Shown: piece after piece, positions 3,896 to 39,911 of the stretch
Numbering within the stretch: position 1 is the stretch's first letter
Layout: each line of letters opens with the position of its first letter
Assembly: GCA_037447655.1 (NCBI GenBank)
Contig: JBBHKE010002036.1
Location: 1-47,239, forward strand
Direction: 5' to 3'
DNA length: 47,239 nt
From: Zygnema cylindricum
Lineage: Eukaryota; Streptophyta; Zygnematophyceae; Zygnematales; Zygnemataceae
Notes under the pieces: model-generated
The model's database searches: none
The model's input: only the letters and a program-made list of their open reading frames with translations
What the model was told of the DNA's origin: nothing
Made by a program: the position numbers and the translations under genes

Positions 3896-4907
3896 TTACA
3901 GTAAATGGTCCAATGCACTTAGGAGCAAATTTCCTCGTAGGATCCGATTCTCCCTCGATTTACCTGTAATAAGATTAGAAAACCAAACCTTGTCACCTGT
4001 GCATAACACCCAATCACCCCGTTTGCGGTACACATTTAATTCTTGCCTCCTTTGGCCTCCACTAATGCATCCCGGACAGTTTTCCAAACTGTTTGAACGT
4101 ATTCCCAAAACTCTGTTTCTAGAACCTCTATTCCCTTGAGTGACCTCTGTTAATAAGTCTAATGCTTCTCTAGATTGGTATCCGTATGCAACTTTAAATG
4201 GTGAGAATCATGTACTAGCATGTTTACATGAATTGTATGCAAATTCCATTAATGGCAGTTTAGATTCCCATGTGTTCTGAATTCTGTCTTGTAATTCTTT
4301 CAAATTATTTAATTTTTGATGTTTTAATTCTGATTTCAGTATAGGGTTTAGATAATTTAAGAAATGCAACTTAGCCATTTCATCAATCAAACCTATAACG
4401 TCAATGTTAGATGAGTCAAATTCCACAATGTAATCCTTCATAGATCGAGTCTGCTTACAGTTCAGCCACTTTTCTTCTATTCTGGATTTAAAAAGTGACA
4501 GACAAGAATCGCGATTTGATCGCGGTTTTAAAAGTTTCCCGATTAACATTATTAGGAATCAATTTAGACCTTCTCTGAGTGTAATACCAAATCTGAGCAT
4601 CGCCTTTCAAACAACTAACAATAAAAGAAGTGTAATCATTACGATCACAATTTCTAGATTCTAAATAATACTCCATATGAAAAATCCAACCATCCAACTC
4701 ATCAATCTTCTTACCATCAAACGATGGTGCCTCACTAATAGACAATTTCAGATCTCTTATCTTCTTAGGTTTATCATGATCATCATCCCTAAAACTAGCA
4801 TTCCTTTTACTTCTTTCACTCTTTTGGTCATTAATATCATTTTTGGTCTGAATTAAGCTAATAAGTTGATCTAATTTCTCATTTGAAACATTTCCATTTT
4901 TTAACAA
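3896..4907 (-). pseudogene. Broken gag joined to the integrase C-terminus (nested element)
   Basis: Frames 4907-4488 and 4549-4208 overlap with a frameshift and together resemble gypsy gag: a capsid-like segment with LDGWIFHMEYYL and LKGDAQIWYY. Near 4270 the gag-like sequence passes directly into SKLPLMEFAYN, a conserved part of the end of the integrase core. A further frameshifted piece to 3896 (VLCTGDKVW) matches the integrase C-terminal region. The simplest reading is one deletion from mid-gag to late integrase. The frame at 5121-4879 upstream is probably the gag N-terminus, also shifted. Confidence 0.75.
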
Positions 4908-5816
4908 CTTTCAATTCACTTTTTAATTCGGAAATGGTTTCATCCACAGCGGCAACATTATTTTTAAATCTTTTAACCAATTTTACAATACGCTTCTTCA
5001 ACACATTCAAACCATTATCCATTTCACGTTTCCATGCAGAATTTGTCATTATCACACAATGAAATGAAGCAAAAGGAAAAAAAGAATATAATTTCCCAAA
5101 AAAAATTGCTGCAGATTTCAAGTCCTAAGATTGTTCCAATCAAAGACTTCTTCTCCTTAACGAATCCTTTGAAAATGTCAAAATCTCAGAAATAAAAATA
5201 AAAAAACATTGACAGTAAGTTAGTGCAAATTCAAATTTCAATTTCCCAACATTGAAACAAAAGGTAAAAATTTCCCCACAAATTTGCAATAGCAAAATTG
5301 AAAGCTCTCAAAGATAAGATTTAACCACAAAATTTGCAACAGCAAAATTGAAAGCAATCAAAGGTAACAATTTAGGGTTTGAAAGGTTTTGAGTCATTTC
5401 TGGACTCTTTTGCTCTTGAAGAAGTAAAGTAATCCACTTTCTTTCTCCTCCATTAGCAAATTTCTTAGTTCCCACTACATCAGGATCTTTTACTCTCTAA
5501 TCCTCACATCCTCACCCTTCATGGCTTGAAGCCCTCCCTCTACACATGAATCATTGTTAGGAGAAGGCAAGTTTGTTTGACCTCTATGTAATTGGAGTGA
5601 GTTTCACCGGTGGCTACACTACCCACCCCGCCTTAGTCCTTAGGACCTTAGCACGACCCACATCTAACTAGCGGCCGCTGGCAGTGTGATCACTCAGTTT
5701 CTTTCCAATCCCCTTCCACTTCACATTGTGGTTCTACCGACACAGGTTAGAGCACCCTCACCGGTCACGGCAATCGATATTCGAGTGAGCAAACTTCTAC
5801 TTGGTTTTTAACCAAA

Positions 5817-5828
5817 GCTCCGATACCA
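5817..5828 (-). other. Primer-binding site of the nested element (initiator Met tRNA)
   Basis: The minus strand reads TGGTATCGGAGC two bases inside the 5' LTR. This differs by one base from TGGTATCAGAGC, the usual plant site complementary to the 3' end of initiator tRNA-Met. Confidence 0.9.
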
Positions 5829-6842: not shown

Positions 6843-9800
6843 TACACTGCGATTCGATCTTTTATCACGTCCTTTGCGATTGCCCCTCCGGTTAAGCTGA
6901 GTTTCCGCACTCTGCCTAAATCGGTGCAGCAAATAGGGCGAATGCATATCCTTCTCGTCCACCGAAGAATCGCTTTCAACTTCGTAGCCTTTCTAACGCA
7001 CCAAATATATTGTGGAGGTAGAATTTCGATGGCGACGCGATTGAAGGATATGCTCCACCTCGTACTCGTCCGCGGTACCTTGAATGGGCGATAACGGAAT
7101 ATACGTGCGTTGATTAAGAAAAATCGAATCGGGGTCGCGAAACGACCTGAGTAGGGAAACATGGAAAACATTGTGAATATGTCATTCCTGCGGAATATTT
7201 AACTTATGGGCCACCTCTCCCACCTTTGAAAGAACAGTGAATGGACGTGTAAATTTCGGTGCCAATTTCTCGGAGAGGGCAACCGGTAAGGACATGTTTG
7301 CCATATTAAGGCGAACTTTATCACCCACATTAAACACGATGTCCTTCCGATGAGTGTCGGCTTGCGACTCTTGACGATCCTTTGCAAGCTGGAGCGCCTT
7401 CGCTGCCTTTTCTAGATTTCCTTGCAGTGTTCTGGCAAAATCTAAAGCTGCGGGCGTAGGGCAATCCGCTGCTAATAAATTTGGGGAAGGGTGGGCTGTC
7501 ATCCATTGATGGAAAATGGCGTAGTATTCGTGGACGAGTGCATCGTAGTGCTATACGCCACCTCAATTGCAGTTAAATGGTTCACCGAATCCGTTTGATG
7601 TACCGAAACATAAGCCCGCAAAGCCTCCTCCAAAGTCTGATTCACTCTTTCGGTGTGACTATCGATCTGAGGGTGATAAGCTGTGGACATGGCCAACTGC
7701 GTTCCACACAACTCGAACAGACTTCTCCAAAAGTGACTCACAAATTTTCGGTCATGATCGCTGAAGATCCTCTTCGGGAGTCCGTGATGGCGGAATATCT
7801 CTCGAAAGAATAAGTCTGCCACATCCCGCGTTGTGGCTGTGGTTGTCATGGGTAGGAAATGGGCCATTTTCGTCAAATAATCCACGACGACGAAGATGGA
7901 GTCATAGCCTTCACGAGTCAACAGAAGGGCAACGATGAAGTCCATCGAAATCGCCTCCCAAGGAACAGATGGTATCGGAAGGGTTGTAAAAAACCTAGGT
8001 GACCTGATTTCGATTTATTTTTGTTACAGGAGTCACATGTCCGGATATACTCCGCAATGTCTCGAGTCATATTCGGCTAATAATACGCCTCAGCGACACG
8101 CGCAGTTGTTTTATCCCGTTCGAAATGTCCACTGAGTGGCTCATCATGACTCATTTGAAGTATCGAATGACGTAACTCTTGGTTTGTCGGAACGTACAAT
8201 CTAGTTGTTTGAGTTGGTCTGTATCGCCACATACCATTTGCGGTTCGAACTAATAACTTCCCTTTTACTAGTTCCTTTAATGTCTCGTCTTCGTCGTATG
8301 CGGCCTTAATCATACTTAACCACTGGTCGTCTACTTGTAACGTACCGGTCACTGCGATGAGTTCCGGATCCTGCGCTTTGTCCGTCGCTGCAGTGTTCTT
8401 TTTCACAGAGCTTACGTTGCCATCCTGCGATGTTTGCAATTGTTGCTCCGTCACTAGCGCAGCTACTCCGCGATTCTCGACAGCGCATCCGTCGGGTTTG
8501 TCTTGCCCGGTCTATACTCAATAGCTAGTTCCGACCCGAAGGTTTGAAGAAACCTCATCAATCGCACCTGTTTCTTTGACAACTTCGGCTGGGTCTGAAG
8601 ATATTGTAGAGCGTGGTGATCGGTGAATATCGTGATCCGTTTCCCTTGAACGTAACATTTCCAAACCTCCAGCGCATTAATAATTGCGATTGTCTCCTTT
8701 TCATGTGTGGCCTAGTTAAGCTTCACTGCCTTTAGTTTTCGACTATTGTAGGCAATGGGTTGAAGGCCTTTTCCTTGATTCTGCATAAGGATCGCTCCAA
8801 TAGCTGTATCGTTGGCGTCGGTGTTTATCGTCAAGGGTAATTCCGGGTCGGGAACAGCTAACACAGGGGCGGTAACCAACCGCTCTTTTAGCGTGTCAAA
8901 GGCTGCCCCTTGCGCCGTTTTCCACTCGTACGTCACGTTATTCTTAAGTAAATTTGTGAGTGGTGCAGCAATTTTTGCAAATCATTCAACAAAGCGGCGA
9001 TAGTAGGAGCATAATCCATGAAAGCTCCGTAACTCTGTAATGTTCGCAGCTGCGGCTACTCCTTCACTGCTCTAGTTTTGTTCGGATCCACTGCGATCCC
9101 ATCCTGGCTTACCACATGATCTAAAAACTCAATTTTTTTCTTCAAGAAGTCACATTTACTCCTCTTCGCGTACAGCTTGTTCTCCCGAAGGACTTGTAAG
9201 ATCGTCCGCAGATGCTCCACATGATCCTCCAATGTCTTGCTATACATCAAGATGTCGTCCAAGAAGACAATTATGAAGGCGTCCAAATATTGCCGAAAGA
9301 TGGAATTCATTGAATGCATAAAAATTGCTGGTGTGTTGGTCAATCAGAACGCCATAACCTGAAATTGGAAATGACAGTACCGAGTCCTGAATGCTGTCTT
9401 TTCCACATATTCTTCGGCAATTCTGGTTTGGTGATAGCCACTTCGCATGTCTATCTTCGAAAAATATTTAGCACCTCGTAGCCTATCCAACAGTTCATCT
9501 ATTTTTATTAGAGGGTACGCATTTTTCACCGTTAACTTGTTTAGCGCTCGGTAATCCACACACATCCGAAAACCTCCATCCTTCTTATTTACGAAGAGGA
9601 CGGGGGCTCCATATGGTGACTTGCTCGACCAACTCCACAAGCTGCTTTTTGAGTTCATCTAATTCGGAGTAGCTCATCTTGTACATCCGATTTGCCAAGG
9701 GTACCTCTCCGGGAACAAGCTCGATCTTGTGGTCTACTTCGCGCTTCGTAGGTAAGCCTTTTGGAAGCTTCGGGGGAAAGACATCAACGTACTCCTCGAG

Positions 9801-10346
9801 AATTTTTGTCACGACTTCCGGGGCCTCTACGAAAGTCTTTCCGATGTCGTCACTCTCTTTCCAGTCGAAGTCGGGGTCCTTCTTACTCCATTCTTCCGGA
9901 ATCCCCTCCTTCCCTTCCTCCATAAGTTGGACGACCGCCATACCAATTGTCTCCCCCTTCTTGAGTGCCCTCTTAAGCTGTAAGGCCGAAAGCAGGCGTC
10001 CCTCTTCCGATCCATTACCAGCCGCTCCCACCTTTACCTCAAACTTTTTTTCACCTTTCCTAACTCTCATGTCGCCACTTCTCCAATCGATCGTCGGGTT
10101 CCACTTTTGCAGCCACGGTTTCCCCAAGAATACTTCATGGTCTGCAAGCGGTAATACATGAAGAGTGTTTAACCAGTGGAACTTCAAAATTTGGACGCGT
10201 AACCTCGGAGTACTATGAGTAATGGATAGGGAACTTCGGTCGGCCAATTGCACCGACTGATGATCCGTTAGCACCACGAGAGGAAGTTTCAACTTTATCA
10301 CCGTCACCTCATTGATAAAGTTCCCCGATGCGCCGGAGTCCTGTCG
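6843..10346 (-). pseudogene. Degenerate pol of the outer element: protease, RT, RNase H, integrase, chromodomain
   Basis: Reading leftwards, the aspartic protease motif DSGAS is at about 10341. The RT fingers start with [14 protein letters not shown] near 9620, and the RT catalytic FLDDILMYS is near 9265. RNase H has INTDANDTAIG (about 8820) and IFTDHHALQYL (about 8630). The integrase zinc-binding H/C residues lie in 8350-8010. Its catalytic residues are in MDFIVALLL (7945), FSDHDRKFVS and HTERVNQTLEE. A chromodomain starts EYEVEHIL near 7063. Breaks include a frameshift near 9620, stops near 9343, 8711 and 8077, a frame change near 7945, a stop at about 7183 and a TAG in the conserved chromodomain aromatic region near 7003. 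The domain order is typical of chromoviruses and the gene is not functional. Confidence 0.88.
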
Positions 10347-11723
10347 AGCATGCCTGGTAACCGGGAGGTCCAGGTTATATGTCCAAGGAGGTGTGTATGA
10401 ACACCTGCAATCCACCCCAAATGCTGATGCTCCCTTGGATCAGTGATAATGCCCATCTCTGTTCATTACCCCCCCCCGAGGGATATGCATAGATAGTAAG
10501 GAGGAATGGAGTGGAAAAGAAAGGTGCCCTGTACCCCCCCTAGATTTCAGTGCTACTCCGCTGGAAGCCCACTAAATGCCACACTCCCAGCTACTCTCCA
10601 AAGAATAGGAAGGAAATGAGAGTCGTCCGATCCTTTCCGCAAAAACTCCGGACAACCCCAAAGATGACCACAAGAGTGTGCAAATAACTCCCACGCAGAA
10701 ATATAGAAATAATAAATATCGGCTTTTCAGATTAAACAATATCACCTTGCCCCAGAGAATGGAATTAAAGATAGAAATGAATGATAATGGTGAAGCGAAT
10801 TCACATACCCCGGAGTGCAACGATGGCCAAACTCAGCAGAAGAAACCTCTCCCAATGGCCCCGAAGACCGGTATGAGTCTCCCTCAACCCTCCCGGTTCC
10901 ACCGCAAGGATCCGACAAGACTCTTCTTAGTTTCAAACAGCGAAAGTCCAGACCGCCCAAAGAGGAGATAGTGCCAACTACCCACCCGTGCTACGGTCTC
11001 CAAAAAAAGACAATCCAAAACAAAGATGGCAATAGAGTCAACGACAAAATGCAACCGTTCTCTAACAAAAAGATTGATTTAATTCCTTGGGGGTTTTCTC
11101 AGGAGACAGTACTGAAAAAGCAACCTGTCTCTTTCGGCCCCAAGTGCCTTATACAACCAGAGTTTGTCCTACTGCAAGTTCCAAAGTCAAAGCAATGTGA
11201 CAAGCCAATCAGCGGCCAGCAATTGTTATCGTACTGACATAAGACAAAACAGACTGTACTACACTCAAGGCTAAAAATTAGACGACTGGTCCCGGCTGGA
11301 TTAGCGGCCGAAGGTCCTTCTATCACACACAAAATGAAACAAAGTTCTGACTCGACGTGAAACCGCCTAACTTTGTCCCAACGTCATAAATGCTTTGCCC
11401 GGTGGTTGGGCTTGAACTAACATCATACTGACAGCTAACAGTAAGATCTACGGGATAATCCTAAATGTTACGTGTCGTTCTCTAAGGTATCCCTCTACTA
11501 GAGCTACATAGAACACACACTATAATGGATCAACCACTTTGCACCGGACTAACTCCCAGTTCGACCTCCGTTTAAGGTGAACTAAATTGCGTAGTGTTCC
11601 AGGATGAAAATAGAAAGATCTGATCCGGCTGATTGTCCTCTTCCTTCTCCGTACGCTAGAGTCCGTACAAAGTGGAATGAAGCCCCGGAACTCCTGGGAG
11701 TGCAAATGTGCCGAAGATGCACA
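10347..11723. other. Unidentified 1.38-kb insert in the outer element's protease region
   Basis: Minus-strand coding sequence stops matching gag-pol at 11724 and resumes at 10346, just before the protease DSGAS motif. The flanks share only CG. I find no LTRs, clear terminal inverted repeats or known domain. The plus strand has two overlapping open frames (10678-10971 and 10815-11237, 97 and 140 codons) in different phases that I cannot assign. The segment may be a small transposon, a captured fragment or part of another retroelement. Confidence 0.55.
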
Positions 11724-12730
11724 CGCGCTTGACAGTCCACCATGAAGCTAGCTGCGCTCACTCTGATTCTACCTTGAAATATCAAAGGATCTCCCCCTTC
11801 ACCAGTTAACCTCATGACGTTAAGCATGCCCTTCTTAGGCCCTCTCCTTTTTGGGCATTCTCGGGCCATATGATCTGGGGAACCGCACTGGAAACATAAG
11901 TCGTTTTGCTTCCTCTGTTGAAGCTCCTTGGGGGACAAGTTATTTGTCCTCGCCTTGGTAGTCTTCTTCTTCTTCCGCAGCATGTTGACCACCTCTTTAT
12001 CCTCATTAATTGCTCCGAGCTCCATAGGGGTTGGACCATCATCACATCGACCTCCCCCGCCACTACTCGACCTAAAGTTGTAGGATCTACGGAAGGTGAA
12101 ATCCACCGAATCGGTCCGTTCCGCAAATTGGATAATCGCCGAGAGGCTAGGAGTCGTACTTTCTTGAGCGAGCCATTGCTCCACATCCCTCCGAATGGAG
12201 GCCTTAAGCCCCTTAACGTAACGATCCACGGCTTCGTCCTCCGTCATCGAGGGTATTTGAACTTTGCATTCCAAGAACCGTTGCGTGTACTCCAATACTA
12301 AGGTACGTTGCTTCAAATTCGCGATCTTATCCTTTGCCGCCTTAATTGTGTTAATGGGTTGCCACGAGTCACGGAGCAGTTGAATAAAAAAAGTCCAAAC
12401 ATGCGGTATTTCATCGTTTTCCACCATTGTCCTCCACCATGCTCCCGCTGCCCCTTTTAGAAGACCACCCGCATAATGAATTTTCTCACGATCCGACAGG
12501 CTAGGGAAATTCTCAAGGTAATTCGCAAGGGAGAATAGCCATGCATCAAGGTTCTTGTGTCTGGCCAGGTCAAACTCATCGGGAAGTCTTAACTTCGGTC
12601 TCCTTAAGTCTCTCTCTAGGCCTCCATGAGGTCGTTCACCAAGACGAGATTCCAAGGTTGCGACGGTGTTACTCAATTGAGCATTCTGTAATCGGACGTT
12701 TTCCAACTCTCGAAGAACTTACGCTAACAT
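11724..12730 (-). pseudogene. gag of the outer element
   Basis: The open frame begins at 12706, but an ATG at 12730 in the same frame, three codons before a TAA, is probably the original start. The protein has a coiled-coil-like N-terminus, a retrotransposon gag capsid region (AWLFSLANYLE, LLKGAAGAWW), a basic linker and one CCHC zinc knuckle, CFQCGSPDHMAREC (C-X2-C-X4-H-X4-C). The frame runs on towards protease and is interrupted at 11723 by the 1.38-kb insert; translation beyond that point is insert sequence. Confidence 0.85.
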
Positions 12731-12781
12731 TTCCGTGGTAGATACGTTGTGTTCTCCCGTGCTGTCGGGTCACGAGGAAAA

Positions 12782-12793
12782 GCTCTGATAACA
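12782..12793 (-). other. Primer-binding site of the outer element (initiator Met tRNA)
   Basis: The minus strand reads TGTTATCAGAGC one base inside the 5' LTR, one mismatch from TGGTATCAGAGC. It confirms the minus-strand polarity and assigns 12795-13294 as the 5' LTR. Confidence 0.85.
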
Positions 12794-12794
12794 A

Positions 12795-13294
12795 TGTAGA
12801 AGGGCAAAATAGTATCCCACAACACACTATAATGCACAACGGAAAGACTCCAAAGATCTCCCCGTAGCAACAGCAAGACTACACAGCACTGACAGATAGA
12901 GGTCAAGCTTTATTAATCGGTAGGAAGATTACAGGTTGATAGCTCATTGCAAAGGTCTACTCCAAGAGTGTGTATTTTTACTACGTCTGCTCCACTATTT
13001 AAACTAACTAGCTGCTAGTCAACCTAATACTGTACAAGTGTACACGTGAACCTTCACGGTCAACCGAGATCTTTCCAAAATATCTTCTAGAACTATACAG
13101 TTAAATCTACGTACTGCGGCGTTGCTATGCTGCCACGTTTCGCTGCTATGTTGCGCTTCGCTATTCTACTAAGTTGCTATGCTGCTATGTTGCGCTGGTC
13201 TGGAATCGCAACTGCGCTGCTCTGTAACCGCAACTATTATAACCGCAACTATAGCAGTCTGGTCTGTAGCCCTTAAGTACCCAACTCTGTAACA
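12795..13294 (-). repeat. 5' LTR of the outer gypsy element
   Basis: A 500-bp copy of 479-964 with TGT...ACA ends intact. It carries a small tandem duplication (TATAACCGCAACTAT) relative to the other LTR. Confidence 0.9.
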
Positions 13295-13642
13295 GGAGTA
13301 TTGTACCGAATCGCCACCTTTTGTACTACACAGTACGTATTGTACAGAATTGCCAACAGTAAACGTACCAATGACGCATTTTGTACAATATAATATTTAA
13401 ACACTTCCTCAATGACGCTAATAAAATCGTACCTATATTAGCTCAAAAACATAGTAGTATTAATTCTATTTTCTGTCCAAGGGGAGTAATTGAGGGGTGT
13501 CTTAATAGCGACTCCCGGTGCACCACCGTTACACTAATTAATTACTCTAAGTCGGTGGCGACCTTTTTTGACTAAAAATCACAAAATATTGTTAGGAACA
13601 CTATTTTAAAACGTGGACTAAATCTGCAACGTCCCTCTACAC
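13295..13642. other. Intergenic gap between LTR element and MITE
   Basis: AT-rich DNA with several GTAC-containing words and no gene that I can support. The 64-codon plus-strand frame at 13381 shows no recognisable protein. Confidence 0.5.
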
Positions 13643-13644
13643 TA

Positions 13645-14197
13645 CACCGCTAATCGTTATTAGCGTAGAAGTTTCTTTAGCGTACATTGAAAATTACCGT
13701 GGTTTACGCTAATTAAGAATTTGAAAATTTTGAAAAAAAACATATATTATAATTGTTTAATAATTCTAATTTGGGTCTTTGAAAAAAATATATGTCGGTC
13801 GCAAACATGCTTACACTAATATAGGTATTCGTACAAAATCTGACAAATCATACACAAATCGTTCACACAGTCGAAACGTGGTTGCTGGACGAATATTTGC
13901 GATCGTGATGTTTGACAACCCGATTAGACCCCCTTTTTGGGCGCACATTCTCATGCTTCCGCGGCTACTAAAACTCATTAATCATACTTTTTCACTTAAA
14001 AAGGTACAATTTTGTACAGTCTGACACTGTCCGTACACCACACAAATTAATTGATGGCGTACTTCCAGTTTGTACGGTACTAAAAAATTAACCCTATATA
14101 GAGTAAAGAAAAAAATAGAATGAACTACGCTAATGGAGAATATAAAAAAAAAGCGGGGCGGAATTAGTGTACACAACGCTAATAGCGATTGGCCGTG
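13645..14197. mobile_element. TA-flanked MITE, copy A1
   Basis: Ends CACCGCTAATCGTTATTAG and its inverted partner, flanked by TA on both sides (13643-13644, 14198-14199). It is about 553 bp and AT-rich, and aligns along its length with copy A2 at 41525-42067. Terminal repeats plus a TA duplication point to Tc1/mariner-type mobilisation. It encodes no transposase. Confidence 0.85.
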
Positions 14198-14199
14198 TA

Positions 14200-14746
14200 G
14201 CATTGAGAATCTTCACTAAAATCCAAAGTTACATTGGCACACGGCCTTAAAGAAAACAAGTGCATGAAGTGTACGCATGCCATATAATTGTGGCACATCA
14301 AGAGAAACTTTTGCACAACACGGATTCAATTCATATTTATATGAAATGAGGGTATTTATCGGACATTACATTTTGAACACCTCGAATCCGTTAGGAGGTG
14401 ATTGTCATACGAACACATTTAAAAATATTTTGAAGAATCTTTCATTAGGTGGTGCCAATAACCAAACTTTTGCCAACGTGCTTTAATGAGGTTGAAATCA
14501 CATAGCTTAGTCTTCAAACATTAAAAATCAACAAATATTCTTCAAGCCCAAAATCTGAATGAAATATTTTCACGGGCAAGCCAAAATGAAGATTTGTAAA
14601 AGCCTAAGAAATTATCACATTTGTACGTACATACTACATCATTGTACTGAATTTGTTGTAATGTTTCAAAATCTGAAATTCCTTCCGCTAAGGTGAACGG
14701 ATGGCAAAAGGAACGTCAAAAATATCAAATTTTCTCGTGGCTTTTA
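14200..14746. other. Intergenic DNA before the TRIM array
   Basis: I see no gene or clear repeat in this stretch. Confidence 0.4.
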
Positions 14747-14884
14747 CTAGATTTGCATCTATTTTATTTTTGCGAAATTCGTGATTCAACATGTCCCACA
14801 CTAGAGAAAATTGAACAAGCTAAGGCTAAAACCTAGGACCTTTCACTTAAGCTGCTAACGCGCTCACCATTGAGCCACCAACTT
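14747..14884 (-). mobile_element. Inverted TRIM LTR remnant with tRNA-like core
   Basis: On the minus strand this is the 3' two thirds of the same LTR found in the plus-strand array. It contains a 72-nt tRNA-like segment (14884 to 14813) with A box TGGCTCAATGG and a CTT triplet (14851-14849) at the anticodon position. It meets the first plus-strand LTR fragment head to head at 14884/14885. Confidence 0.65.
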
Positions 14885-14969
14885 TTGGAGGTCATACGTT
14901 TGAGCCCTCGCCGACTCAATTCTCTTAGTGTCGAAAACGCCAAATCTCGGATTTTGCTGGAATCCAACA

Positions 14970-14982
14970 TGGTATCAGAGCC
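14970..14982 (+). other. TRIM primer-binding site, initiator Met tRNA type
   Basis: TGGTATCAGAGCC directly follows the AACA end of LTR1. It matches the standard plant iMet primer site exactly. The equivalent sites at 15202 and 15465 carry two or three changes. Confidence 0.85.
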
Positions 14983-15084
14983 TACGAGATTGCAGATGGA
15001 TTCACTAGCCTCTTTGTGAGGGGGGCTGTTGGATTGGCACGCGGATGGCGAATCAACACGTCGAAGCAATGGGTATGGACCCGT

Positions 15085-15156
15085 CAACTGGTGGCGCAGT
15101 GGTTAGCGCGTTCACATCTTAAGTGAAAAGTCTGAGGTTGGAGGTCTTGTCGGTTC
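15085..15156 (+). ncRNA. tRNA-Lys(CUU)-like cloverleaf inside TRIM LTR2
   Basis: The 72 nt fold as a tRNA. Acceptor CAACTGG pairs with TCGGTTC at six of seven positions, counting G-U. The D stem is GCGC/GCGC. The anticodon stem TTCAC/GTGAA is perfect around loop ATCTTAA, with T33 and anticodon CTT (15118-15120). The T stem TGAGG/TCTTG pairs fully with G-U allowed. The A box TGGCGCAGTGG (15092) fits the polymerase III consensus. The B box here is degenerate (GGTTGGAGG). A functional tRNA is unlikely; an internal pol III promoter or structured RNA element is more plausible. Confidence 0.65.
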
Positions 15157-15339
15157 AATTTTCTCTAATGTGGGACATTCGAATTTCACGCAAATCTAAC
15201 ATGGTGTCAGATCCAACAAGGTTGCAGATGGATTGATCGGCCTCGTTGTGACGAGAGTGTTGAATAAGTACGCAGATTTCAGTTGAACAAGCTGAAGTTG
15301 CTCGAAATAAATGGGTATATATGCGCATGGTTGAACATC

Positions 15340-15411
15340 AAGCCGGTGGCGTAGTGGTTAGCGCATTCACAACTTAAAATAAAGGTCCAAGGTTCGAGCC
15401 TTAGCTAGTTC
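15340..15411 (+). ncRNA. tRNA-like module inside TRIM LTR3, with intact A and B boxes
   Basis: Again exactly 72 nt. The A box TGGCGTAGTGG (15347-15357) and B box GGTTCGAGCC (15391-15400) both fit consensus with tRNA-like spacing of 33 nt. The D stem and most of the T stem pair. The anticodon position reads CTT (15373-15375), but the 3' half of the anticodon stem is mutated. Of the modules here it is the best candidate for pol III factor binding. Confidence 0.65.
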
Positions 15412-15602
15412 AATTTCTCCAAATATGACACATGCCGAATCCCGGATTTTGCGGAAATCTAACATGGAATCGGAGCCAACGGGGTCGCAGGTGGATTGAT
15501 TATCCTCCTCGTGAGGGGTGTGTTAGATTGGTACTCGGATGTCTGTTGAACACATTGAAGCCGCTCGAAATAAATGGATATGGACCCGCTAGGCTCAACA
15601 TC

Positions 15603-15674
15603 GAGTTGGTGGTGCAATGTTTAGCGTGTTCACAACTTAAGTGTAAAGTCCCAGGTTGAAGTCCTACACGGCTC
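15603..15674 (+). ncRNA. tRNA-like module inside TRIM LTR4
   Basis: 72 nt. Acceptor GAGTTGG pairs with ACGGCTC at six of seven positions, although both strands differ from LTR2. At acceptor pair 3:70, A-T in LTR2 is replaced by G-C here. The anticodon position reads CTT (15636-15638). The D arm is weakened to G-U pairs and the B box is degenerate. Confidence 0.6.
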
Positions 15675-15727
15675 AAATTTCCCAAGTGTGGGACATGCCG
15701 AATCCAAGATTTCGCGGTAATCTAAGA

Positions 15728-16877
15728 GCGTCCACCTTGTCCCAAGAGGACCAATTGTAAATATGCAAAATGTGATTATGTCCTCTTTGAGGACACTAGG
15801 TACAAAGTGGATGAATTGAGTGATTGTGTCGCGAACGCAAAAAAACAAAAACTAGGGCGATCAATATTTACACCTATATGGTTGGAAATTTGCCCAAATA
15901 TCGACACATCTCTAATAAACATATTATAATAAAAAAATATATGTATATATTAGGATTGGTATGAAAACGTACGACATTAAGTAAACAACCTCACCTTTTT
16001 GCTAATAGAGTTCAACTTTTGTTGCAAAAAAGAAAAACAAACATAAATATATAGAGCATCTGAGGCATTTTTAAAACCGCTTATCGTGTATCGTCAAATT
16101 ACAGCCGAAAATACTCCACTGCAGTTCATACACATGCGTTGACACATGTCCAAAACGACAAAATTAAACGTCGTAAAATGCTCGACAAAACTAAAACGCC
16201 GTCAAACGCCTTTATTTCTTTCGCGATGTTAATTGTGGCTCATCACAAGTTTGGCATTTTGCAATTAGCCGCGTAGCCATGACAAACGAATAGATGCGGG
16301 TGCCAACCGTAGACAATTGATTCCACCGTATAGTACTGTACGGATCAGCTGATTTTCATATTCTCCAAAACCATACCTTGACTCGTTTTCGAAAGACAAG
16401 CACACTGAATTCATTTTGGAGTTATCAAACCGTATGTACCATACTCTTGACTTACTTAGTTGTTAAAGGATGCTAAAGGTACGGCTCCATGTAACTTGTA
16501 ACTTAGCAAACTTACTTTGTTTTTTAGGAAGGATCTAGCGGACCCGGATTTCAGGTGTCTCTATGTGTTTACTCGAAATTGTTACTTAACTTTGTGACGA
16601 TTGTATACGTCGACAATGCTCGTGAGGGTTGTCAACGAGTACAATCTGTCTTATAGCACCGTATCTTTTGAAACTTTTTGATGCGTCGCAAGACACGTCG
16701 TTATTTTTGAAACAGTTTGGTAATCTCGCATATCATTGCGTGACATCGTAGACGTACAGCCTTGCAGCCGTGGCTGTACAACATGCCTTTGCGTAAACCT
16801 CTCACGTCCGAACCCCATGACTTCGCAGATTTTTCACCTTCGGATATTTTTCACCTTTAAGTGAAATGACACTGCAC
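15728..16877. other. Intergenic DNA without recognisable genes
   Basis: AT-rich sequence between the TRIM array and a MITE. I see no open frame with a recognisable protein and no strong repeat. Confidence 0.45.
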
Positions 16878-17360
16878 CATAGTTCAAAAGTTGGTGAAAG
16901 TACACTAATAAAATATGCCTATTGTACGCAAAAAATACAATGTACCCTTAAGACCCATATTGTATTGGCCGCAAAATAAAATAAAATAGTAACAGGGTTG
17001 AGTTGCACATGGATCGATAGGGAATTAAACGTCATGTCTAAATTTGAAAAAAAAAACGGACAAAAAATTCTTTTTCTGTGAGTTTTGAGGTACTTTTTAT
17101 TTATACCATCAGATTCGGACAATTGGACGATCTCAGATCAAAGTAGCGATCTAAGAAGATCACATGAAAAGCCCATAACACAACTTACGATAGGACTATC
17201 GTCAGATTCGGACGATCGGACGGTCGCTGATCAAAGTAGCGGTTTAAGAAGATCACATGAAAAGCCCATAACACAACTTACGATAAAGGCGCCTACAAAA
17301 GGCCTACAATAGAAACGCCTACTTTTGAACTATGATAAAAACGCCTACTTTTGAACTATG
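16878..17360. mobile_element. Second MITE family, copy F1 (CATAGTTCAAAAGT ends)
   Basis: The ends CATAGTTCAAAAGT and ACTTTTGAACTATG form inverted termini. The interior matches the reverse complement of F2 at 42164-42469. Inside, a block of about 87 bp (from about 17107 and again from about 17195) is tandemly duplicated, and the last 25 bp (CGCCTACTTTTGAACTATG) also occur twice. The target duplication is unresolved. Confidence 0.75.
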
Positions 17361-18747
17361 GTTACTAACTGTTAACGATGGGTTAACGATGTACTTCCCT
17401 GTAGATTTGGTGGCTGGCGTACTTTTGCACCGCCAATTTAAAGTACACAAATATGATCGTACGTACACAATTTGTACACTTTCTTCCGTGGTTTTTACTT
17501 TTTACGACTTCGCGACGATTTTGAAGAGGGTGAGAAATAAATCAACGAGGTGAAATCGTAGCCGTGCCTTGGGTAATAAGCATGCTTCTCGCCGTGTGGA
17601 AGATCTGGCCACGTCAGCCTTGGACGGCCAGCCCATGCCAGCCGACCCTCACACGTGCGAACATTGCAGCGACCGCGTGACTGCAGTCTTCTCGCGGCTT
17701 ATGCCGAACTTCCATTTTTCGGTATCCGTATCGGTATTGATTTGCCGATGGAGTTTCCGTACGACAACCGGAAGAATTGGATGAGTTTCTCCGTGTTTTA
17801 TTTATGGTTGACGTCCATTCGAGAGAAGTGGCTAGGGAGTATTCTTGCTTCTCTTCTCTTTTTTTTGTTTGCCATGCACGGAGATGGTTTACCGTCGCGC
17901 TTTGGTAATAAAGTCTTGGTTTTTTTGCTTCTCTCCTTACATCTTTTTATCGTCAGTGTTTGTTGGTTGCTTCAGAGCGAGTGGCGGGTTTAAGGTGTCT
18001 GCTTTAGAAGTTTTTAGCCATGGAATTTCGACTCTATAGTTTTTGTTTTGGATACGCTATTTTATTGTTCTTTCTGTGCTTGCTTGTCCCTTTCAAAACA
18101 TGACTGCTTGTCCTTTCAACCTGTTTTATTTTTTTTAAATGCTTCCGACTCGCGTTCGGTTGCCTCTCTTTTTGTTGTTCACGGTTTACCTTGTGCTTCT
18201 TTAATAAAATCTTACGGTTTTACACTTTGCTAGTACAACCATAACTCCCAAAGCTGTCTACAAGTGGACGGTAGAAAGGGAATTAGCCTCTGTTTGTGAA
18301 ACTAAGTACTCAGAATGACTTAGTTGAGGGATGAAAAGAGGCAATCACTTTTGAAAATCTGGCAAAATATTCTCGTTTTCGGGCGAATCAATTGTACTTG
18401 TAACTAAGATACAACTAGAAAACTGTTTAGTTAGTTATGTTTTTTTTTTGTTACTTGTTAGTTTTCTCCTTTGATGTTTTGTTTGCGGGGTTTTGCTTTT
18501 TTTGGGTGTTTTCGATTTCCATGCCATTCTTTCGTATTTTCGTCGGTTTTGCCTTGATTTTCCTTTTTGTTTATTCCCTAGTCATGTGGTTTTTTCAGTT
18601 TCAGCAATGCTACTTCCTTTTGTTCCTATAGACTCAGATGGTTTACCATCGCGTTTTTTAATAAAGTCGGCCCTATTACTAGAAAACTGGGAACAACTTA
18701 TAACCCAGTAATTTGAGTGGTGCTTACGGCAGATTGTTAGATCAGTA
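17361..18747. other. Intergenic stretch with three copies of a GGTTTACC...AATAAA motif
   Basis: Near 17885, 18182 and 18640 the sequence repeats GATGGTTTACCRTCGCG-like words followed within about 20 bp by AATAAAGTC or AATAAAATC. Between them the DNA is T-rich. Plus-strand frames of 60-112 codons here show no recognisable protein. These may be decayed copies of a transcript end. Confidence 0.4.
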
Positions 18748-22900: not shown

Positions 22901-24776
22901 GTTACCCTTTTACAAGCAGGAACACCTACAACCAGAAGCAAGGCTTTCCAGTTCAGTTTTTGTTAAACACTGGCTCACCTTTGAGCAACCTCCTTCCGGA
23001 CACTGTAACGAATCTTTTTATCATAGCATCGTTCTTTCCTTTTTTCACGGAATCTTGTTAAGGATGCAAGGCGCTGTGGCAAGTTCATTCGGGCAGGTAG
23101 CTCGTTGTGAAACTGCAAAAAACATAGCCAGCAGAGCCGGGGGGGAGGGGAGGAACAAAGTGAGCTGTTAAACTAGCCCAAAGCCAATATTTGGCTAGGT
23201 TGAGCAAGACACTTGAAAGCAGTTCCAGATAAACCTGCTACAATTAAGGCCACTTCAAATTCTAAAAACATAAAATTCTAAGAAACATTCTGTCAGTAAA
23301 ATTCATGGAACTTAATGCATTCAGAAACAGACAAAGAGGTCCTATTTTTTTGAAATGTACACCATTCACAGGTCATATGATACCAAATGATAAAAAGATC
23401 CCACAACACATTTGTTTTCATAATCCTAAGGTGCAAAAATAATGGGAAACACTTTGGTGGTTTCCCCATACAGTAGGTTTATCACACTCAAAAAAACCAT
23501 ATGATAAGCATATAGTATAGGATCACCACATACAGAGATCCCAATTGTTACGCAAACTATGATTATTTTGAGCAAGCAGTCCACTATTACTAATGAACCA
23601 CAGACAGCTTTGTATGCATCAAGACAATAGGTCAAATGTGCAAAAACAATCGAACCGCACTACTATACACATATTGCACCTTGGTTCTGGGCTCGATAAG
23701 AGCAGTAAGGGCTAACAAGCTATAACATTTCCAATTGTTCTCACACATTTGAACTACAATCAAGAAGAAAAAAGCTGGATAACTGTCCATCACTATTATA
23801 GTTAATCAAATACGAGTGAGTGAAAATCATAAACCAGTGTTAATAAGATTTTAATAACTGTGTGGCCCATAATGAGCTACATGGCAAAACATGATTCAAT
23901 GTAGTTCATTCCAAAGAAGTTTTAACGCTAATATTCCATTAACTCTTTGCTAACTAAGTCTAATGGCGATGGGAGGTGTACCTTATTGTATTGGTCCTTG
24001 TAAACTCCCGGAGATGTACTTCCACCGGCCATGCCCGCTGGAATCTCTCTTCCACCAAGAACAAGGAGCACAGCTTGTACCTGAAAAACAGCATTAGGGC
24101 CAATTACAACAAGATAATCATAAGAGGACTCCAAACACCGACCAGGGCATCTTCACATGTAAACCTAAATGCAAAAAGTGAAGAAATAAGAGGGCACTGT
24201 CTGATACTAAAGCAGAGAGAAATGCTGTTATTACCAAAACAAAAGGTACCTTTCCTGGCGGTAAAAAACAAAAAAGTACCATACCTTTTCTGGTGGTACT
24301 GTGTCGAACACATAGACTTCTCCTTGGTAAGACAAGGTGAGTTGTGTTGCCCCTAACGCACGCCCTCCACCTTCCACCAAATGGCTGTCATCTCTGTTTC
24401 CATCCTCGTCATCCATGTCTTCGTCTCCACCAACATCGTCTCCATCCACGTCACCCCCTTCTCCGTGGTCCATTGAGTGACCATGTCCATGTCCGTCTGG
24501 ATGCATTTGTCCGTGATGAGCATGTTGATGTACATGTGCATGAGGGTGCGCGTGTAAATTATGCGTATTATGTGTATGCTCATGACCATGGGCGTGATGA
24601 GCATGTACGTGGACCAATGAGTTGTGTTGCATGTCGTGACCAGGGTCACCGGTGTGGTCGTCTGTCACATGCCGGTGGACAGCCTGCCTGTCGGCTTCTG
24701 CCTGAGCCATGGCTTGAACATGTGCATGATGAGCATGGACAAGCTGAGCCTGGACTTGAGGATCAGCTTCTGCCAT
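19944..24776 (-). CDS. ZML-type transcription factor: TIFY, CCT and GATA zinc finger domains
   Basis: Nuclear DNA-binding protein of the plant ZML (TIFY group I) family. Seven coding exons join in frame with GT-AG introns: 24776-24285, 24080-23982, 23112-22979, 22334-22203, 21680-21575, 21160-21086, 20105-19944. They predict 399 aa. TIFY (TLSYQGEV, about 147-180) normally mediates protein contacts. CCT follows at about 211-250 ([15 protein letters not shown]...RKEVAQRM). The GATA finger is C-X2-C-X20-C-X2-C, with cysteines at 287, 290, 311 and 314. The first about 107 residues are extraordinarily histidine-rich, followed by an acidic run. An acceptor-like site at 24918 suggests a 5' UTR intron. 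All hallmark residues are intact; Arabidopsis ZML1/ZML2 are the named relatives. Confidence 0.93.
20109..20215. repeat. Polypurine/polypyrimidine tract at the 3' end of ZML intron 6
   Basis: About 105 bp of almost pure purine on the plus strand, hence C/T on the transcribed strand, immediately before the exon 7 acceptor at 20106. It acts in effect as a very long polypyrimidine tract. Confidence 0.8.
21869..22165. repeat. AAC/AAT microsatellite with flanking 43-bp direct repeats in ZML intron 4
   Basis: A run of AACAACAAT units (about 21908-22030) lies between two near-identical copies of a sequence containing CCCACTTCAAGAAACTACAG (21870 and 22048). The second copy is followed by a shorter AAC/AAT run. 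Local duplication by slippage or unequal exchange is likely. Confidence 0.85.
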
Positions 24777-27297
24777 TCTAAGAAGCTGGCCCTAAATTAG
24801 GATTTTCACCAGCAAGCAAACAATTCCGGTGAGTTCAGACAAGTATTGTAAAATTTCCGTTGAGTTTCGTCAAGTTCCGTCACTTTCCAGCTACACACTT
24901 TTTCACATAAAGACTACCTGCAAATAAAAAAGCAAAAAAAGGAAAGTCAGCAAATGCATAAGAAGAAGGTCAGAAGGGAACAGTGGTTTCGAAAGGATTT
25001 GAAGGTTACTGCGAAAAAGGTTTAAGATACAGATCATAATCACTCGCCCTAGGAACAAGTGAGATACAACTGTATGCTGTAACCCTAATTTGATATTACC
25101 AACATCATTCTTTCAAATTTATCAGGAACTCCATTAATACAACTCCCACGGAGCCCTCCGTAAAGTTAGAAGCGCACCTTTCGTATAGGTGACAAAAGGA
25201 AATAAAAGTTACTTCACTTGAGACAAAAACTCAAGAGCAAAATACTTTGACTTGTCTATGGGACGTATACCAGCCAGTTGCAAAAGGTCAACCATTCGGG
25301 GAGCTACGCCCTTCAGAGATATGATTGATTCTCTTAATAAAGAGTAGCCACATTTCAAACAAACAAGGAACATGAAGCCTCCTATAAATTGCTAAGTATA
25401 GAGAAGCCATGGCTAATATATTATTACTGCTGGCTTCAGACCACTGCTATTGACATCAAATATTCGACCAAAAGAATCGTCCTTTAGAAGATGATTAGAA
25501 GTAGGATATTGAAACTGGATATAACTTCTACTTCATACCATAGCCATACTTTCTGCAAACATGATCAATTAGAGAAACGACATGGAACCAACGGTTAGTG
25601 GTAGTGAGCAGCATACCCGGAGAGTCAGGATGCAGGCAGCCAGGAGCAGACGAAGATGGCATCTGAACGGACGTCCGCCCTCCATCTCCAAATCGTGCAG
25701 CTGCCAGGACTCCAAGGGAGTTGATCACACAACGGAACTGCAAAATGTCGCATGGAGAAGCGTGTTTGACTAGCAACAAAAAATCGATGATGCTCTCTGA
25801 CACTACTGGAACTATATCTCAACCGTTAATTTGTTATTTGACGGTCTCGATGCTGCTTCACATCTTCTGTCACGCGTCAAGACACGTACGAACATCTCAA
25901 ATTATGCAGCTACCGGGACTCCAAGGTGGTTGATCGCATAACGACAATGTTGATCATCACATGGAAATGCGTGTTTGGCTACCAGCAAGAAAATGTTGAT
26001 GCTCTCTGACACGACAAACATAGTTCTGATTCGCTCACCATTTTTGGACGGCCATTATGTTGTTTAATCTGATGCAGGATGATGTTATTTAATTGTTTTC
26101 CATCTCTTGTCACGTCTCATCGGTCATGACACGTTCGAACATCCTCCAATGCCAGGATTCCAGGCGTTTGATAACAAAACGGAACTGCGATTTACCGCAT
26201 AGAAATGAATGTTTGGCTTGATCGCACAGCGGGACTGTAGGTCCGCTGATAGAGAAGCGTGATCGACCAGTAACAAAAAGTCAAAAACATTGATGATGCA
26301 ATCGGACTCTACTACAATAAAATCTAAATCGTTCGTGCTATTTTTAGACGGTCAAGATATTGTTTCCTAGATTCTGTCACGCATCACAAGACGTTCCAAC
26401 TTCCAAACTTCCACTATCCTCCAAATCGTGCAGATGTCAGGAAACGGTTGATCAACTGTTCAACTGTTACAGAGAGTCGCCGCATGGAGAAAGCGTGTTT
26501 GTCTACCAAGGAAATCTTTCCATTCCGAAGATGCACACTTTCACAAGTCTGGGATGTAACCGCGCTAGAAATCAGGAGAATTCTGAAGAATCCTGAAGAA
26601 TCCTGAAAGATCTTGTGTCCAGCTTCTCTGAGGTCCCTTTTTGCCTTTGACATTATCTTTTTTGACTTTTCCAAGAGTTTTGCAAAGTACAATTGTACCC
26701 TTTTGAGTTTTGCAATTTGGACTGTGGTATCATCACCTCGTCATATTTCTCCAATAGTTTTGCATACAAACAATGAAAAACATTTTTTTTGCACTTTTGC
26801 AACGAACAGTGGCATAGAATCGCTCCACGTGGAATCATTGCAAGCTCTTGTATGGCTGGAATACATTTCTCTTTAATTCCATCAATTGAAAACATGAGAA
26901 AAGACTTTCATTTATTTCATTATGGCAAGCAAGACTAAAGTTACAGTTACTGAAAATTATGAAACATCACAAACTCTTCCTTGATTCACATTAACAAGAA
27001 ACTGTTACAATTGTACTTTGTTACTGAAATCTACTATTATTCAATACAATTTACACATTTATTACCTTAAAATTTCCTGGATCTAAACATATGCAGAACT
27101 AAGGAAGTGAAGAAACAATATTCCTGTTTCTTCCTAAACATATCTGCTTTTCACATCCACCTAATTAAACTCCTCACTTCCTCCCTCAAATATCCCTCTT
27201 ATTTTTTCAAGACCAAATATTATTTTCTCCCTCAGAAATACATCGCCCGTTTTAAAACTAGGCGAACAATTTCACAGGTAAAGAATAATTATGTCAT
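24777..27297. repeat. Intergenic region with a decayed tandem repeat (25684-26530)
   Basis: Between the ZML start and the ABCG stop. About four diverged units of roughly 210-270 bp recur near 25684, 25893, 26141 and 26416. Shared words include CAAATCGTGCAG, CCGCATGGAGAA, AAGCGTGTTTG, GATGCTCTCTGACAC and TCTGTCACGC. They show no coding sequence. The part nearest 24776 holds the ZML leader and promoter. The part nearest 27297 should hold the ABCG 3' UTR, with AATAAA on the minus strand at about 26917-26912 and 27063-27058. Confidence 0.6.
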
Positions 27298-30200
27298 TTA
27301 ACGTTTTTGGAAATTTAAATACTTAATACCGGCAGCGTATACTACCCAAAAAAGAACATCAAATCCTATTAACACCGCCGCAACAACTCCCAACAAATTA
27401 TGGTGAAATCCAAAATAATCGGAAATAAAATCCTCCACTTTCACTGATTGCCCGTCCAAAGTGGTAAAAGAAGATTTCACGTCTCCCAGTTGAGAAGTAA
27501 TGAGACCATAAAGAGTCCAAGCCACGGGGCTGAGCCAGTAGTACCATACCCACCAACCCGGTATTTGCTGCAAAACAGTCCAAACAGAATAGTCCAAACT
27601 AAACACAGATCAGTTAAAAGATTTAACAAAGTAATTGTGATTTGCTTATTGGAAATCTGTTAAGCCCTTCTATTTGTAAGTAGGCAAATAATTCGAAAAG
27701 TAATAAGGGCTTAAAACAGGAAAAGCCAGTACTATGTTCTTAAAACTGAGTAGTAATGACAATCTTAATACATATCAAAGTAAATTTTCACAAGGAACCT
27801 TAACTATTTGCTACACTAGATCTAGTTGTGGCTTATATCGGTTTTTTTGAATCCAAGTCAGTGTGTTTTCAAGTTTTCTTCTACAGAAGTATTTAGTCTG
27901 TCAAACCAGTAAGGAAACTCAGGCTAAAGAGATGTCTGCATTTCTTTTCTCAAGCAAGATACTCCCATTTGGCAGGCTAAAAAAGAGAGATAACAATCAG
28001 TCAATTGTCAACAAACATTTTTTTCTATATGATCTTGTTTTCAGGTGCTTAGTTAAAAGTCAATTCAGCAAGGAGAAGAGGAGTGTGGAGGAGGAGAGCT
28101 AGGAGGGTAGCTGGACCGTACCGGACGAGGAATGAGGAAACCGGAGAAGAGATTCCAAATGGAGTAAAAGGCGGAGGAAATGACAGCAGCCAAGTTCTGA
28201 TTGGGCGTAATAGAAACCGTCATCATTCCGTAAAAGGTGAAGTACATGAAGGTGAGGTACATAAAAAGAGTATACCAGAAAAACTTTGCAGCTGTCCACT
28301 CGAATTGAATCATGGCATATGTGATGAGAGCATATACCACTGTTTGGAGAAGGACATAGGGGAGTTCAATAATTCCCTGTATATTTTCCACAAATTCAAA
28401 ATGAAATCAGAGGCATACAATACCTTTCAAGCAAAAAGTATATGACATGAATGCAACTAATTTCCAACTGATTAAAACACTCTCCAGTAGAACATTGCTT
28501 CTCGGAATAACAGCAGAACGTGAACTATTATTGATTGGGCTAAAAGCAATATATGCTTAATAGTATAGCATGAAACTGTCAAATGTTTTGTACAGATTTA
28601 AACAGTTTTACTGGAAAAGAATGGTTGCTTTACCTGTGCTATGGCATACGGCAGAGGAGAGTACATTCCAGCTGCCCTTTCTCTGTAGAAAACTGTCCGT
28701 TCAACAGAAATTACTGGCTGAACTGTTGATGAATTATTTACACCGATGAACAAAACAGCAGCATAAAGCGCACCCATGACATTAAAGATTTCTTGGTAGG
28801 CAGATCTGCAAAAACAATGAGTTTACCAAGCTCACTTAGTTTTTAACTCCCGCAACATCCTGAAAGCACATTAAAAATGTTTCCATAATGTTTCGTCATT
28901 ATGAACGACCTTCTTTCCTCGTATTGTCATTATTTAACAGCCTTCTTTTACTTTGACCTCAGATCCATTCACAACTCTCAAAATGCTTGTAGGAAATTTA
29001 GAGCTGGAAGTCTCCAATTTTCTGCTCTCTCCCCACCTTTTCTTTCCGAAGCCCCAAAAGATAGTACCAAATATGAGCGCACAGATTTGTGTGAAAAAGA
29101 AGTTGATCGCTTTATATTGAGGTGTCCTCCAGTATGTCCAGTGGTTCTTCCATAAACATATAAGGACCTGAGATGGGAAGCTTTGCGAGTAAACCGTTGA
29201 GAAAGAAAGATCCCCTTGACCAGCTGAGGGTTTGCTAAGTTCCATTATCAATTCGTCCTGTTGCCTGTAAAACAAATAACATTATTTGTTGCCCATTAGT
29301 TTAATCATCCGCTTTCTTTTGCCAACCTTAATTTTTATGTAAACAACTTTAACATACGTTTTCTCTAGATTTTTTTACCTTTCTCATTGACATAGCTAGC
29401 TCCAACTTTCTGCCTTGATTTAAGCAACAACGGATGGAAAAGAAAATCATAAGATCAGTATAACCTGTGTGGCCTGAACCTATCCTCTCTACCCCCTCAT
29501 CCCGAAGTTTGTGTCAACAACTTCTAATAAAGGCATCAATCAGAAAGTTAAACGAAAAGCATCATAGCAAATTAAATTAAATTCATTCACTCAGTTCCTG
29601 TGTCTCTTCGTCCCAAAGATTGTGCGTACAACAAGTTAAGAACTAACGAACTCCAATAAAGTCACCAGTCAGAAAGTCGAACAAAGGTATCATAGCCTCC
29701 CCCCCTCCCTTTCCCTCTCCTTCCCTCTCCTTCCCTCTACTCACTTGTACAGCTCAGACTTCTGAAAGATGTCGGCAAAATCAACTCCAATTCTCTGTTC
29801 ATTTGCTGGTGTGGTAATCTCCAGCATCCACGTGGCAGGATTATACCCGTCCTTGATTTTTGGCACACCCTCGATAGCCTGGAAAAATACGCAAATATAT
29901 CCATTTCCAAAGGTCATTCATTTTGCTTTTCTCCAGTAATGCAAATTCACCATTGATGCATTTACGGTGAAAAAAAAGAATGACCATTCCAGAACTTTTA
30001 CAAATGTCTCATAAATTTCCTCTTTTGACTTACCTGGAAATAGTCAACAAGGATAGACGAGCGAGGTCCTAGGGGACCTTGGTAGATCACTTGACCACCA
30101 CGCTTCATAAGGAGTAGCTGCAACAAAAAGAAATAGGAACCCATGAAATCTTTTAATTTCAAATGACAAACTTGACAATGTCTATCTCATATCTGATTAA

Positions 30201-33200: not shown

Positions 33201-34262
33201 TTTAAAAGTAAACGGATGTTAATAAGGAGGATAATGGTGTTTTTACCTTGCTTTGCCATCGTTCTGCTGTAAATTCATTTACAGCAATGGCATTTTCTCC
33301 GTAAGCTAAGGGAGAAACCCAGTAACCCCATATCCACCATGGATGGATATCAGCTGCACAAAAAAAAAACCATAAAATCCTCATTAAGGACAATATTAAT
33401 AACCCACTAATAGGGCTACTAGACTGTCGTAAATTTTGAAGGGTAAATTTCTGTAATTACCTCGGAGAGCAAAAATTTAAACCAAAAAGTTAACACTTAT
33501 CCGTGTCACAGTTGCAGCTTATGTTAGAATTCTAGATACTAACGAAAACAAAAAAAGGTGATACAACAAAGACGTGCATTAACTTATTATTGTGAAAAAA
33601 AGATTTGATGTTTATTATTCTGGATGTTTGGGGCCAGTACCCTCTGAATCGTTTTATTGTTAATCCAAATCCCAAGCTAATAGTTTCTTCAATAACAGTT
33701 CACGGTGTATCATACAGAGTAAGGAAGGAGTAAACTTACGCTTTGCAACAATAAATCCTCCAAGAAGGAAGACCACAAGGAGAGAGAAGGAACCAAATGT
33801 GTTTGCAACAACCATACTTCGACCCAATGCACCGATAAATCGGAAAAGTCCAAGTGCCATTTGATGAACACTAAACATCAGTAGCAAATGCCGAAAAAAT
33901 CTGGTAAAAAGTAAAAAAAACATTCAATCCATAAGTTTCTGACTGTAAGTTTTTATCATTTTTTCAAAAATTCGATAAGACTAGAGAAAACGAGAAGGTA
34001 AAAACCCGGCCTGACTGAATTAAAACATAAAAAGAACGGAAAAACTCCTATCGGTGTTTATCAGAATTTCCACTCCAAACTCAAATAGAAAGTCAATGAA
34101 GTACACCATTTTAGGAAATGAGCGTACAAAAGGAGAGAGAGAGAGAGAAAGAGAGAAAGAGAGGGGGAGAGAGGGGGAGAGAGGGGGAGAGAGGGGGAGA
34201 GAGGGGGAGAGAGGGGAAGAGAGGGGGAGAGAGGGGGAGAGGGGGAGAGGGGGAGAGAGAGG

Positions 34263-34340
<78 letters not shown>

Positions 34341-34341
34341 A

Positions 34342-34372
<31 letters not shown>

Positions 34373-39846: not shown

Positions 39847-39911
<65 letters not shown>

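Follow-up and report, generated by a model that had tools for sequence, protein, structure and literature searches.

A decayed tandem TRIM array with a tRNA-like module in its long terminal repeats in Zygnema cylindricum: a probable Helenus-like element

Why should the long terminal repeats (LTRs) of a very small retrotransposon contain a tRNA-like sequence, and did that sequence ever serve as the promoter of the element? The question is raised by a repeat array occupying positions 14745-15727 of a 47,239-nt stretch of Zygnema cylindricum DNA (contig JBBHKE010002036.1), the whole of which was analysed here and is referred to as the window. An earlier inspection of the letters without database searches (the sequence-only reading) had recognised in this array a terminal-repeat retrotransposon in miniature (TRIM) whose LTRs carry a tRNA-derived module. 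Our analysis suggests that the array is likely what remains of a tandem TRIM of the kind described as Helenus (TRIMp3), the LTR module of which probably once drove the synthesis of element RNA by RNA polymerase III. What is left at this locus is a relic in decay.

Anatomy of the array

The array begins with an inverted LTR remnant and a partial direct LTR, after which an internal region and an LTR alternate three times, each internal region opening with a primer-binding site (PBS):

14745-14884, minus strand: inverted LTR remnant, from module position 1 through the LTR 3' end (alignment)
14885-14969 (approximate), plus strand: LTR-0, a partial direct LTR comprising the 3' LTR part from about the anticodon loop (alignment)
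14970-15026, plus strand: internal region 0, 57 nt, PBS to purine-rich end
15027-15201, plus strand: LTR-A, 175 nt, TGTT...AACA
15202-15257, plus strand: internal region 1, 56 nt, PBS with 2 mismatches
15258-15464, plus strand: LTR-B, 207 nt, TGTT...AACA
15465-15520, plus strand: internal region 2, 56 nt, PBS with 2 mismatches
15521-15727, plus strand: LTR-C, 207 nt, beginning TGTT and with an AAGA end in place of AACA

The coordinates given in the sequence-only reading proved correct, and alignment added to them the partial LTR-0, which had been overlooked. LTR-A is 32 nt shorter than LTR-B and LTR-C (two gaps, of 11 and 13 nt, precede the module and one of 8 nt follows it), and the unit from LTR-B to LTR-C measures 470 bp. 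The inverted remnant is missing the 5' part of the LTR, has about 17 additional nt near its end (by eye) and has a left boundary that is uncertain by some nucleotides; on the opposite strand it shares 72.0% identity with LTR-C and 73.1% with LTR-B (blastn). No further copy of the array was found elsewhere in the window by blastn at E values up to 0.01.

The PBS of internal region 0 (TGGTATCAGAGCC, 14970-14982) is of the initiator Met-tRNA type and shows no mismatch, the corresponding 13-mers of the other two internal regions having two mismatches each. At this tolerance of up to two mismatches the window holds six matches to the 13-mer, three of them in the internal regions of the array, for an expectation of 0.82. 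The final 10 nt contain eight purines in all three internal regions, the purine run being therefore an interrupted one, and no stop-to-stop frame of at least 110 amino acids overlaps positions 12719-17579. LTR ends of the TG...CA type, a PBS, a purine-rich end and nothing long encoded make up the anatomy of a TRIM, so that the identification of the element as such holds. Kimura two-parameter distances among the LTRs amount to 0.28-0.39, which indicates that the array is old.

The tRNA-like module

The sequence-only reading had placed a tRNA-like segment with a CTT anticodon in the three complete LTRs and in the inverted remnant. All four copies do carry it, anticodon included, and they align without gaps over 73 columns:

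15085-15157, plus strand: module A, tRNA-Lys(CTT)-like (ARAGORN, as 15084-15158; Rfam RF00005; cloverleaf), with TTTT at 15159
15340-15412, plus strand: module B (Rfam RF00005, below gathering), B box GGTTCGAGCCT with 1 mismatch
15603-15675, plus strand: module C (alignment, cloverleaf; absent from the ARAGORN and Rfam lists)
14812-14884, minus strand: inverted module (alignment, cloverleaf; absent from the ARAGORN and Rfam lists)

In LTR-A, LTR-B and LTR-C the module is preceded by 58, 82 and 82 nt of LTR sequence and followed by 44, 52 and 52 nt. It thus sits in the same register in the copies and belongs to the LTR, as had been proposed; in the inverted copy, whose 5' LTR part is missing, only the 3' side serves to fix its position. 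LTR-0 retains the 3' part of the module, including a B-box-like CGTTTGAGCCC with two mismatches.

The case for a tRNA origin is carried by the cloverleaf. Standard pairs number 20 of 21 in module A, 15 in B, 17 in C and 17 in the inverted module, against a mean of 7.75 over the 94,485 frames of 73 nt on both strands of the window; 246 of these frames reach at least 15 pairs, 15 reach at least 17, and module A is the only one with at least 18. When each module was shuffled 2000 times with its dinucleotides preserved, the observed pair count was attained three times for B and never for A, C or the inverted copy. In register, 82.1% of the 84 pairing cells of the alignment are paired, compared with 31-45% when it is slid by one to three columns. 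ARAGORN called a single tRNA in the window, which is module A as tRNA-Lys(CTT), and none in 40 dinucleotide-shuffled windows; the same tRNA-Lys(CTT) was called on the 73-nt majority sequence of the four modules (ties resolved to copy A). With lax filters the Rfam tRNA model scored module A at 32.6 bits and module B at 23.3 bits, the gathering threshold being 29, while module C and the inverted module were absent from the matches up to E=10, and the whole-window Rfam scan with default filters listed nothing. Weak Rfam matches to mir-204 and Xist, far under gathering, were taken as chance. The four modules are homologous and hence do not count as independent evidence. Taken together, these comparisons indicate that the module is of tRNA origin, though degraded.

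The internal promoter boxes are less telling. With respect to TRGYNNARNGG, the general A-box consensus, all four modules show at most one mismatch, and B-box mismatches range from one to three; nevertheless, the 13 loose A/B-box pairs in the window do not exceed the mean of 13.4 found in 60 shuffled windows, and therefore the evidence for a tRNA lies in the fold and not in the boxes. Of the box motifs given for Helenus, TRGCY occurs in one of the four modules (the others have TGGCG or TGGTG), YGG in three and GGTTC in one. A TTTT run directly follows module A and the inverted module. Within 50 nt upstream, CAA occurs before module A (at -31 and -18) and module C (at -7), and not before B.

A working tRNA-Lys gene was also considered and rejected. 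Such a gene needs T33, C56 and a full cloverleaf; T33 is found in module A only, which has G56 and no 1-72 pair, and a functional tRNA is thus unlikely at any of the copies.

A proposed polymerase III promoter and the competing explanations

As far as can be judged from the sequence, the module probably served RNA polymerase III as the promoter for the RNA of the element. While the element was active, transcription would have set in at the 5' LTR module or immediately in front of it, guided by the A and B boxes there, crossed a unit of about 260 nt and terminated at the run of T that follows the 3' LTR module. The RNA would then have had the module itself as its terminal repeat, on which strand transfer relied; if it spanned modules B and C from the first position of B to the last of C, its length would be 336 nt (15340-15675). 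Reverse transcriptase and integrase would be supplied by an autonomous element, by analogy probably one of the Ty1/copia superfamily, and recombination or read-through between LTRs could have formed the array. A polymerase III promoter role for the tRNA-derived LTR sequence of Helenus is expected in print, and PMC10886601 describes polymerase III transcription as validated for Cassandra and as unvalidated for Helenus.

Several observations weigh against this proposal. GGTTC is present in the B box of module B alone. A T run after the first module would also halt the genomic transcript unless it were read through, modules B and C are followed by TTT only, and LTR-0 has no run of at least three T at that place. 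Presented singly to ARAGORN, modules B, C and the inverted one were left uncalled, as was the majority sequence of A, B and C. Sequence identity within the module and in the rest of the LTR is 0.74 versus 0.68 for A and B, 0.76 versus 0.77 for A and C, and 0.67 versus 0.75 for B and C; the four-copy alignment reveals no covariation in the module beyond that of shuffles, and folding energies are ordinary, with 149 (A), 194 (B), 35 (C) and 116 (inverted) of 200 shuffles folding at least as well. This absence of excess conservation, covariation or folding signal fits the neutral decay of a module that was once intact. The superfamily of the helper is named by analogy alone, and Gao 2016 (PMC4717578) found no encoding relative for 278 TRIM subfamilies. 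Finally, a target duplication around the array cannot be demonstrated, its flanks GCTTT and GCGTC matching by eye at 3 of 5 positions with the inverted remnant as the left end.

The alternative that withstands the data best retains the same TRIM and has it driven by RNA polymerase II, a fragment of a tRNA or of a short interspersed element (SINE) having landed in the LTR and hitch-hiked with it without ever acting as a promoter. It draws on the lack of excess conservation and covariation in the module and on a TATATAT that begins 24 nt upstream of module B. However, TATA lies within 50 nt upstream of only one of the three forward modules, and the entire 73-nt module has stayed gapless in all four copies. 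Moreover, elements of this kind recur in fungi, animals and a plant, and according to the same source (PMC10886601) the boxes are conserved in most Helenus LTRs, as fits a promoter role. We consider this explanation unlikely, although it is the one to be taken most seriously.

Much less credible is the idea that there is no LTR element here and that a tRNA-Lys pseudogene, or a tRNA-derived SINE, was duplicated in tandem together with a spacer. The direct repeats, with module-to-module spacings of 255 and 263 nt, and their tRNA-like core would agree with it, but the spacers open with an initiator-Met PBS and close purine-rich at TG...CA-type LTR bounds, an arrangement unexpected for an array of SINEs or pseudogenes. 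As to a SINE in its own right, tRNA-derived SINEs start with a tRNA-like part that contains A and B boxes, lack PBS, LTR and purine tract, and are moved by non-LTR retrotransposons; this candidate was dismissed, given that LTRs, PBS and purine tract are present. Copies of the module flanked by target duplications of their own would have spoken for independent insertion, and such duplications were sought at A, B and C. No exact direct repeat beyond chance flanks A or B, in line with the sequence-only reading, whereas module C has a weak 7-nt pair, GGCTCAA, that is reached in 39 of 1000 shuffles and needs 8 nt of the module to be counted in. That the tRNA likeness arose by chance in one degraded copy can be all but set aside: the empty default-filter Rfam scan, the loose box pairs equally common in shuffled DNA and the ARAGORN call in one of four homologous, non-independent copies are outweighed by the unique pairing of module A among all frames of the window, the silence of ARAGORN on the shuffled windows and an Rfam score above gathering.

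The inverted remnant and LTR-0 meet head to head at 14880-14884, where the inverted module, with its acceptor end, and the sense module, with its anticodon loop, have AACTT in common. The inverted arm covers the LTR from the first module position through its 3' end, and the sense LTR-0 takes over at the anticodon loop. It is conceivable, if rather doubtful, that the remnant is the fossil of a reverse-transcription error marking the start of the element RNA: were the RNA to begin at the module, a minus-strand strong-stop cDNA would have just this extent, and a second minus strand would have served as template for its erroneous extension. Counting against the strong-stop interpretation, no exact complement of 4-7 nt to the initial letters of the inverted module exists within that module, so that the join is compatible solely with a switch to a different copy, for instance B or C (loop AACTT). 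A plain inversion with microhomology explains this single junction as well as a strong-stop cDNA does. If the remnant were such a fossil, the genomic RNA would have been started by a tRNA-type promoter, and a plant lineage may have captured that promoter independently of Selaginella.

Relation to described elements

That LTRs with a tRNA module might be an undescribed kind, as the sequence-only reading had allowed, did not hold up. TRIMs with tRNA-derived LTR sequence have been published as Helenus, from fungi, animals and one plant (Kojima 2024, PMC10886601), the only plant in the corresponding table being the spikemoss Selaginella moellendorffii, with an LTR of 120 bp and an internal region of 85 bp. 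In the description given there, most Helenus LTRs, not all, have an A box with TRGCY and YGG and a B box with GGTTC, plant and fungal Helenus produce a 5-bp target-site duplication, and tandem arrays are noted for LTR-11_DR of zebrafish. The Zygnema element resembles Helenus in being a short LTR element without genes (non-coding, under about 1000 bp), in the tRNA-derived sequence of its LTRs (strong in one of the four copies, weaker in three) and in the PBS and purine tract of its small internal region. It differs from the Selaginella element in its dimensions (LTR 207, internal region 56), and the two are likened here by description.

Cassandra, the TRIM bearing 5S rRNA sequence, has its PBS given as TGGTATCAGAGC (PMC7215508). 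As far as the cited accounts go, the Zygnema array shares with it the remnant of a polymerase III gene in the LTR, the same PBS and short arrays of about three LTRs, which Cassandra forms in many species; the remnant is of a tRNA here and of 5S rRNA in Cassandra, and Rfam scans of the window with default and lax filters disclosed no 5S rRNA in our LTRs. Tandem TRIM arrays have been reported for 129 subfamilies, which come from 35 of the 43 plant genomes concerned, the commonest form in maize (63 of 93) comprising three LTRs and two internal regions, and the rice example has the PBS TGGTATCAGAGCC (Gao 2016, PMC4717578). The arrays of that study, which covers 156 families, are unlike ours with regard to the tRNA module: the word tRNA is absent from its main text, so that no such module is reported there.

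In the literature searched, outside which lie most subscription papers and Repbase, no title reporting a flowering-plant case of a tRNA-bearing TRIM was found. Among the papers listed there from 2024 on, only that of Kojima is, by its title, devoted to Helenus. A 2026 meeting report (PMC12859917) cites Helenus and, in the portion available, adds no case, and PMC12786077 treats Cassandra with Helenus unmentioned in the corresponding portion. When two sequence words from the module and the PBS word were sought in published papers, the 25 of 27 matching papers that were listed contained the PBS word alone. A distant similarity search of a plasmid collection returned no relative, and exact degenerate patterns gave no match in viral contigs (internal region and module) or in bacterial and archaeal genome contigs (module); these collections being of viruses, plasmids, bacteria and archaea, the blanks say little about relatives in plants. 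Overall, the array appears to be another plant representative of the Helenus kind, new and degraded.

Judged by what it encodes (an ABC-2 type transporter frame, a tify-domain frame and Ty3-type pieces), the window is plant nuclear DNA. Outside the array, degraded pieces of a Ty3-type retrotransposon (gag with a zinc knuckle, protease and integrase) lie at 7182-12793 on the minus strand, where a PBS-like TGTTATCAGAGCT (12781-12793) precedes the gag frame by 62 nt. A gag-like frame recognised by eye at 4488-4910 (minus strand, no Pfam match) and a PBS-like TGGTATCGGAGCT some 900 nt upstream (5816-5828, minus strand) possibly represent another LTR element. Two 89-nt copies, 90% identical and spaced by 93 nt, occupy 17104-17285. 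A frame at 24231-24791 (minus strand) encodes a tify domain, which is plant-specific, after a histidine-rich stretch. An ABC-2 type transporter frame (Pfam ABC2_membrane, 28065-28406, minus strand) and a frame at 39994-40350 (minus strand) without Pfam match delimit a region, 28065-40350, whose minus-strand frames we take to resemble the exons of a gene for a full-size ABCG (PDR) transporter; Ser-Leu translations point to simple repeats rich in CT near 34.1-34.4 and 38.2-38.4 kb.

A second plant case, in which the tRNA fold is nearly complete, suggests that elements of this kind have been overlooked among plant TRIMs. Helenus-like elements can, in addition, generate spurious predictions of tRNA genes, and the Zygnema array offers a possible plant system in which the predicted polymerase III transcription of Helenus could be assayed.
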